Source: Candidatus Desantisbacteria bacterium CG1_02_38_46 (lineage in GTDB: Bacteria; Desantisbacteria; UBA1551; UBA1559). Taken from it: a DNA stretch of 11,244 nt. The position numbers and the translations under genes were made by a program. Shown here one piece after another: positions 10,476 through 11,244 of this stretch. The notes beneath the pieces are model-generated. The model was given only the letters and a program-made list of their open reading frames with translations, searched no databases and was not told the origin of the DNA. The stretch's first letter is position 1. Each line of letters begins with the position of its first letter. The stretch covers positions 1 to 11,244 of the forward strand of contig MNUO01000104.1 of assembly GCA_001871015.1 (NCBI GenBank), written 5' to 3'.

Positions 10476-10817
10476 ATGGAAAAGATTATTGATTGTTTAA
10501 GGAAAAAAGATAAGGAGAGTTTGAACGAGTTTAAAGAGAAAGTGAGAAAGAAATTTCCTGAAGCAAGTTTTATCCTTTTTGGTTCAAAAGTAAGAGGCAA
10601 AGACACAATTTTCTCAGATATAGATATTCTTGTGATATTAGATAGGGAAATAACTACTTCTATTGAAGAGGAAGTTTTTGAAGTTGGATTTGAGGTAGGA
10701 TTGAAATATGAAGTGGTGTTTGGAATAGTAGTAGAGGAAAGAAAATTCTGGGATTTTTCTTTATATAAGGAAATGCCTTTTTACCAGAATATAGATAGAG
10801 AAGGAGTAAAAATATGA
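10476..10817 (+). CDS. MNT-type minimal nucleotidyltransferase (antitoxin-like)
   Basis: This 113-residue minimal nucleotidyltransferase has the motif GSKVRGKDTIFSDID (GS-x10-DxD), the signature of MntA-type proteins. In MNT/HEPN toxin-antitoxin systems this protein is the antitoxin and modifies the HEPN toxin by adding AMP. A strong promoter lies upstream, and GGGGG at 10461-10465 serves as a rather distant Shine-Dalgarno. Its stop overlaps the next start (ATGA, 10814-10817), the standard arrangement for such pairs. The pair is unrelated to the upstream metabolic operon and is a typical accessory module. The catalytic residues look intact even though its partner is truncated. Confidence 0.88.
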   Translation: MEKIIDCLRKKDKESLNEFKEKVRKKFPEASFILFGSKVRGKDTIFSDIDILVILDREITTSIEEEVFEVGFEVGLKYEVVFGIVVEERKFWDFSLYKEMPFYQNIDREGVKI

Positions 10818-11029
10818 ATGAAGAGAGAAAAACTTTAATTGAATATAGATTATTAAGAGCACATGAAACCTTAGAAGATGCTAAGATTCTTTTTGATAAA
10901 AGAAAATTATTTTCTACGGTGAACAGAATTTATTATGCTATGTTTTATGCGGTAAATGCATTATTATTGTCCAAAAATTTGGTAGCGTATAGAAAACGGT
11001 TGCTAATGAAGCCATTTCTTGGTCTTTGA
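10814..11029 (+). pseudogene. HEPN-domain protein, truncated (toxin-like partner of the MNT gene)
   Basis: The 71-residue product begins as a normal HEPN protein: RLLRAHETLEDAKILFDK and then NRIYYAMFYAVNALLLSK, which is the conserved (S/N)RxYYAMFYAxxALL helix of the family. HEPN partners are usually about 120-135 residues. After residue 53 or so family resemblance ends, and the frame stops at 11027-11029 in sequence that does not look like HEPN. The later helices, including the usual H-containing segment of the RNase site, are missing, so toxin activity is unlikely. AAGGAG at 10801-10806 is the ribosome binding site. The break coincides with the start of the unusual structured region downstream, suggesting that an insertion cut the gene. 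Confidence 0.75.
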
Positions 11030-11044
11030 AAAATATTGAAAAAC

Positions 11045-11181
11045 AGTCGCCGTGCTTAGTGGATAATGTGGGGTCGCCTCGGGCGACTCCAAGCGATGTG
11101 GAAATTGTGGGTAACACTCTTACTTGCCTTACTCTCTATCGTTATCCATCAATTTCCACAGAGCGTCATTATCCACAAGCA
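11045..11181 (+). other. strongly structured region: three-way junction of nested inverted repeats (possible ncRNA or mobile-element end)
   Basis: Three stems fit together. The outer stem pairs 11053-11068 with 11167-11181 (15 pairs, one bulged A at 11058). Helix 1 pairs 11070-11078 with 11082-11090 (gtcgcc/ggcgac core, very short loop). Helix 2 pairs 11097-11115 with 11141-11160 (19 pairs, one bulged base at 11149, one G-U pair, 25-base loop). An extra copy of agtcgcc (11045-11051) could compete for ggcgact (11082-11088), so an alternative fold is possible. The region is richer in G and C than its surroundings. It also contains one perfect DnaA-box-like nonamer, TTATCCACA (11169-11177), and near copies at 11058-11066, 11106-11114 and 11142-11150, in opposite orientations. 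No convincing protein is encoded. A structured RNA of a transposon, subterminal repeats of an insertion element, or an origin-like site would all fit. Confidence 0.5.
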
Positions 11182-11244
11182 GTATTTCAAAATTCTAATA
11201 GCGATAATAGGTTTTTAGGTTGAGAAGATCGTTGACTAAATTTG

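Follow-up and report, generated by a model that had tools for sequence, protein, structure and literature searches.

The window analysed here is the whole of contig MNUO01000104.1 (C133), 11,244 nt of the 1.73-Mb, 133-contig genome of Candidatus Desantisbacteria bacterium CG1_02_38_46, and our subject is a three-armed fold close to its right-hand end, which is located just within one of the ends of an insertion sequence (IS). To the left of the IS, on the plus strand, an MNT-type nucleotidyltransferase gene at 10476–10817 (PF01909, 42.8 bits) precedes its HEPN partner, of which only a 5′ remnant at 10814–10980 is left (PF05168, 31.4 bits, with only profile positions 2–50 aligned in one search and 2–60 in another). 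The HEPN open reading frame (ORF) continues to 11029, its part beyond 10980 being IS sequence. As the HEPN domain is preserved only in its first half, we conclude that the IS has interrupted the gene, in line with a sequence-only reading of the window, which had suspected such an interruption. That reading also had the fold begin where HEPN similarity ends; the similarity stops at ∼10980, at the IS end, and the fold starts ∼70 nt further on.

Repeat homology starts at ∼10981, within the HEPN ORF, with a terminal inverted repeat (TIR) of type B, (G)GTAGCGTATAGAAAACGGTTGCTAAT, at 10981–11010. The same repeat is present at the transposase-start end in C108, and the terminal sequence (G)GTAGCGTATAGAAAA... 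is likewise found at the other, transposase-start end of the IS in C7, C86, C101 and C108. Its inner part has two variants, TTGGGTCTAAT and CGGTTGCTAAT, each found at both kinds of end, and type A copies have a different repeat variant that again matches at both ends. This genome has seven copies of the window-type IS end. The last bases of the window recur at other contig ends (C51 and C126 stop at the identical base), the same end sequence is found near the start of C15 and C38, and C63 and C114 contain diverged copies. Two insertions are represented by both of their sides, C15/C108 with an 8-bp duplication of AAGGATTT and C51/C101 with one of CAATATTT; from these, the expected target-site duplication in the window is AAAAATTT at 10973–10980, for which neither the partner side nor the remainder of the HEPN gene was found in the assembly. 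The fold thus sits within the end of a multicopy IS with matching TIRs and 8-bp duplications, and subterminal IS sequence, one of several identities proposed from the sequence alone, was the correct choice.

The transposase gene is encoded on the minus strand and extends beyond the right-hand end of the contig, so that only its C-terminal codons (11187–11244, with the stop at 11187) are present, in the frame seen in C38; the C114 and C63 copies give ...NGKSPLELAGVDTSHLNWVRFSQRS. In genome G058 a full homologue, 69% identical in its C-terminal part, combines a zinc ribbon at the N-terminus with a DDE-type signature; the transposase is a zinc-ribbon DDE protein, weakly IS256/MULE-like. This homologue clears no family cut-off, and against the NCBIfam cut-off of 150 for the IS256 family it scores 12.7 bits and the C114 fragment 25.1 bits. 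The sequence-only reading had asked whether a transposase or a TnpB/IscB gene lies to the right of the fold; other copies of the IS supply the transposase, and no TnpB/IscB gene is involved. At two loci (L056 and L061, on C7 and C86) a hairpin possible in the 5′ leader of the IS would mask the ribosome-binding site of the transposase (TTAGCCTTTTTGTGA / TCACAAGGAGGCTAA), a well-known type of protection from read-through. The related IS of G058 lies within an inverted repeat, TTCTATCATTTT...AAAATGATAGAA (L167, ∼1359–1382 and 2642–2665), which is perhaps a terminator used as a target.

The plus strand at 11053–11181 is predicted to form a three-way junction of −62.6 kcal/mol, compared with a mean of −30.3 (S.D. 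3.4) for 200 shuffles, none of which was equally stable (z = −9.54). An outer stem of 15 pairs (5′ arm at 11053–11068, 3′ arm at 11167–11181) encloses hairpin A (11069–11091; 10 pairs, with the tip GTCGCCTCGGGCGAC at 11073–11087) and arm B (11097–11160; 19 pairs, one bulge and a 25-nt loop). The two are separated by the junction strand AGCGA (11092–11096; AGYGA in the alignment across IS families), and a second junction strand, GAGCGT (11161–11166; GAACGG in most other genomes), leads back into the outer stem, which contains an exact DnaA-box consensus, TTATCCACA, at 11169–11177. Comparison of the sequences upstream of the copies reveals a 5′ tag, AGTCGCCG at 11045–11052 in the window, that belongs to an AG(YMG)n motif standing directly upstream of the fold in most IS families and copies and missing from the G086/G226 group. 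The stems drawn in the sequence-only reading (a 15-pair outer stem and two hairpins, one of 19 pairs) have therefore held up, and the same fold recurs in other genomes. The switching at which it hinted, by an alternative pairing of 11045–11051 with 11082–11088, has not: this pairing exists only in copies with the window-type hairpin A, the longest match of its kind being 4–5 nt in the C15, C38, C63, C114 and C59 copies, and we reject conserved switching. Rfam, which it had proposed as a check, gave no family for the window (nothing at the gathering score; best match at a lenient threshold, E 1.2) or for nine homologous loci (a tRNA as the sole match, E up to 0.5). No stem with an immediate T-run, terminator-like site or U-tract was found at the fold, and no description of it in the open literature; it is apparently undescribed so far.

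A covariance model (R1) trained on copies from the window genome was run on 386 genomes, that is, this genome and a few hundred others, and the compensatory changes by which such a fold can be judged were examined in an alignment (A2) of eight sequences from seven genomes with 33 pairs, using 500 shuffles and slid structures as controls. In A2, 93.9% of cells pair (80.9% when shuffled), both sides have changed in 15 of the 33 pairs (6.7 when shuffled), and the covariation score is 0.386, compared with 0.136 for shuffled and at most 0.085 for slid structures. No shuffle among the 500 reached the observed pairing, double-change count or covariation score; the shuffles leave relatedness in place, although the carriers here are unrelated elements. 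An alignment of ten sequences representing all IS types gives the identical structure. The unpaired junction features AGYGA and GA(A/G)CG are conserved, the pyrimidine of AGY co-varies with its C/G or T/A partner in the second strand (A2 columns 47–117: UA 4, CG 2), and a tandem GA/GA adjoins arm B.

The framework of the cassette is kept and its tips are free. Among otherwise near-identical copies the tip of hairpin A is replaced wholesale (GTCGCCTCGGGCGAC in C133, TAACTCAAAGAGTTA in C15), several tips match hairpins scattered elsewhere in the window genome, and arm B contains a second, nested module in C63, L178 and L185. In G265 (L185, L193 and L194) a module within a module gives a branched 177-nt fold of approximately −93 to −104 kcal/mol. 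The sequence GTCGCCNNNGGCGAC (window 11073–11087) occurs 22 times in this ∼37–39% GC genome, its reversed control not at all; its sites (C5:1141, C49:14718 and 14784, C75:304, C77:317, 2450, 2556 and 8319, C95:7633, C97:14929 and others) include positions inside rRNA genes (16S and 23S) and a methionine aminopeptidase gene, in the latter apparently in frame, and it looks like a dispersed mini-hairpin. A 33–35-nt hairpin, CCCCC-GCTTGTCTGCG-CAAGCAGAC-GGGGG, caps unrelated palindromes in several contexts (C48, C3, C123, C82 and C59; L147, L148, L113, L158, L115 and L031), as if hairpin tips were transferable.

The copies found with R1 place this fold at the ends of several kinds of unrelated IS, which makes it look like an accessory part traded by jumping genes. 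All eight copies in the window genome adjoin IS ends or transposase genes, seven of them in the window-type IS and one at C59, in the leader of an unrelated transposase gene; in G116 an rve_3-type DDE domain comes after the homologue of this gene. Although their ISs are unrelated, the C59 and window copies are identical at 65 of 67 framework positions, suggesting that the cassette was recently exchanged between ISs. R1 matched 12 other genomes, and we claim only those with E no higher than 1e-7. These come from eight of the 385 genomes, with one or two copies each, and every one lies at a transposase gene or remnant. ISNCY-like elements with perfect 23-bp TIRs carry the fold between repeat and ORF (G262 and G217:C12; L190 and L197), and in G086 an ISNCY gene has it at its 3′ end, as do IS256/Mutator genes in G172 and G217:C1; further copies lie in IS21 in G312 and G265 (two copies), in IS110 elements in G226 (two copies) and beside the remnant of a C59-type gene in G339. 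Its neighbors across genomes are DDE/DEDD transposases or IstB, not TnpB/IscB. In most IS types the fold reads inward, between IS end and transposase; L189 and L200 read outward, and a strict inward rule is rejected. In the related IS of G058 a few dozen bases separate stop codon and terminal repeat and the fold is absent, which makes it an optional cassette. Very probably, then, the window ends in the transposase-distal end of an IS equipped with a structural cassette of accessory nature, in the form of a three-way junction with a tag, that is common to and exchanged by unrelated IS families.

Weaker R1 matches, in G128/G264 and in G025 (L186, with no adjoining IS), are not claimed. The weakest, G128/G264 (L201 and L202), are origin-like arrays of DnaA boxes (TGTGGATAAC repeats) rather than the fold and are probably origin regions; TGTGGATAACTC repeat arrays at these two loci can fold back. 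Outside the genome set, an exact 16-mer had 12 matches in viral contigs, none with the fold and hence due to chance, a looser consensus had no match there, a gapped pattern run across 85k species genomes had a single match, within a protein gene and not in a fold, and a search of plasmids by DNA found no match, a 24-nt match in Pasteurellaceae plasmids being a different hairpin.

Two further properties bear on what the cassette might do. Folded as RNA, the plus strand is the more stable of the two strands in 18 of 19 copies, including window-genome copies found by plain BLASTN, so that one single strand, of RNA or DNA, is probably active rather than a symmetric cruciform. In addition, 12 representative copies contain TTATCCACA exactly 8 times and with at most one mismatch 37 times, compared with 0.005 and 0.45 in shuffles, and these DnaA-box-like sequences lie at helix bases, closing most of the helices. 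Any explanation must suit many transposases, one strand, any tip and DnaA boxes at helix bases, and docking of DnaA, although unproven, fits all four. The IS end would become single-stranded, upon which the plus strand could fold and present its helix-base boxes to DnaA or to a DnaA-domain protein; such docking would let the host replication machinery repair, copy or time any IS, whatever its transposase. A further candidate reader of the cassette is a fusion protein of the window genome that unites a Y1 (IS200-like) transposase and a DnaA-type helix-turn-helix (Bac_DnaA_C; L125, C109:6925–7248). From the strand bias and the boxes we tentatively propose that the cassette may serve as a plus-strand docking site for a host factor. 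With similar reserve it can be seen as a transposase-independent accessory module, possibly read through its DnaA-box helices and conserved junction and acquired among IS families to engage a host replication factor. To the whole explanation, the shared IS-end cassette together with DnaA docking, we assign a probability of roughly 0.45.

The strand preference, the G-U pairs and the tandem GA/GA internal loop would equally be expected if transcripts of the IS end folded into the junction and were terminated or processed, shielding the transposase from read-through in either sense. The position of the fold between IS end and transposase, inward-reading in most IS types, suits such an RNA insulator, the main rival to docking, leader types L178 and L181 also carry an apparent hairpin hiding the ribosome-binding site, and in ISPpu9 5′ untranslated-region structure and small RNAs control the transposase (PMC8450116), though those structures are specific to one IS and form no shared cassette. 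An insulator accommodates many transposases, one strand and any tip but leaves the DnaA boxes at helix bases unexplained, and with the lack of a terminator-like site or U-tract at the fold and the outward reading of L189 and L200, we regard it as unlikely. More doubtful is a REP-like element moved or bound by Y1 tyrosine transposases (RAYT/TnpA-REP), especially Y1 proteins with a DnaA-type helix-turn-helix, and riding as a passenger at IS ends. The 5′ tag, seen in most copies but not in the G086/G226 group, resembles the unpaired GTAG and CGTC tags that precede REP palindromes (PMC3733652), whose stems also vary. The window genome encodes several Y1 proteins and abounds in other REP-like families, often in tandem (L104–L123; GTAACTCAGGACTTTAGTCCTG, with 33 hairpins in 350 kb, GTAGTGGCAGAGTTTACTCTGC, GTAGTGGTCGAGTTTACTCGAC and others). 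However, whereas REPs are high-copy, intergenic and species-specific, the cassette is a three-way junction with eight copies in the window genome and one or two in others, nearly all at IS ends and spread across genomes and IS families, and its copies lie on contigs other than those of the Y1 genes (C60, C109 and C53), none beside a Y1 gene.

Wholesale tip swaps, tips that match dispersed hairpins and modules nested in modules (C63, L178 and L185) could also arise if palindromes built up in noncoding IS ends by template switching and hitchhiked without a function. Small hairpins that spread, also into rRNA, are known from mitochondria (repetitive hairpin-forming elements, GC clusters and double-hairpin elements; PMC2800124) and recall the swapping of tips in the cassette, but the cassette is bacterial and bears its tips on a conserved framework inside ISs. 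As framework and junction strands are conserved with compensatory changes across genomes and IS families, a selfish or neutral palindrome seems improbable. The copies in IS110 elements bring to mind the guide RNA of an RNA-guided mobile system, either an IS110 bridge RNA or the TnpB/IscB omega-RNA that the sequence-only reading had listed. The latter is unsupported, for want of such a gene or a matching omega-RNA family, and since most partner enzymes are DDE transposases whose elements have TIRs, one fold serves unrelated enzymes and Rfam offers no match, a guide RNA is extremely improbable.

The DnaA-docking explanation has difficulties of its own. The enrichment of boxes stems partly from shared descent, so the 12 copies are not 12 independent observations, and some copies have few boxes (one each in L179 and L180). 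The G-T pairs and GA/GA mismatches suit RNA equally well, and most DDE ISs are, to our knowledge, not known to pass through single-stranded DNA. Selection by the model favors plus-strand folding; the window-genome copies found by BLASTN show the same bias, however.

A precedent for docking on a folded strand is the A-site of the ABC primosome, a single-stranded DnaA-box hairpin at which this primosome loads in a DnaA-dependent manner (PMC6127211). Like the A-site, the cassette has a DnaA box within a hairpin stem on one DNA strand; the A-site is, however, one hairpin with one box, whereas the cassette, which resides within ISs, branches at a three-way junction of conserved sequence, has several boxes and bears a tag, and its DnaA binding is putative. 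The subterminal hairpins of IS200/IS605 likewise place secondary structure just inside IS ends, but they are cognate to one HUH transposase, whereas ISs with the cassette encode transposases of several families, DDE or DEDD.

ISs are classed by their transposases and are thought to carry little beyond the transposase and its cognate ends. That at least five unrelated IS types have one structured part implies that they meet the host through a shared interface, which ISs evolve or trade, and the fold offers a marker by which a new Rfam-type family could be defined. If the DnaA-docking explanation is true, the cassette ties transposition to DnaA in a way that experiments can probe.
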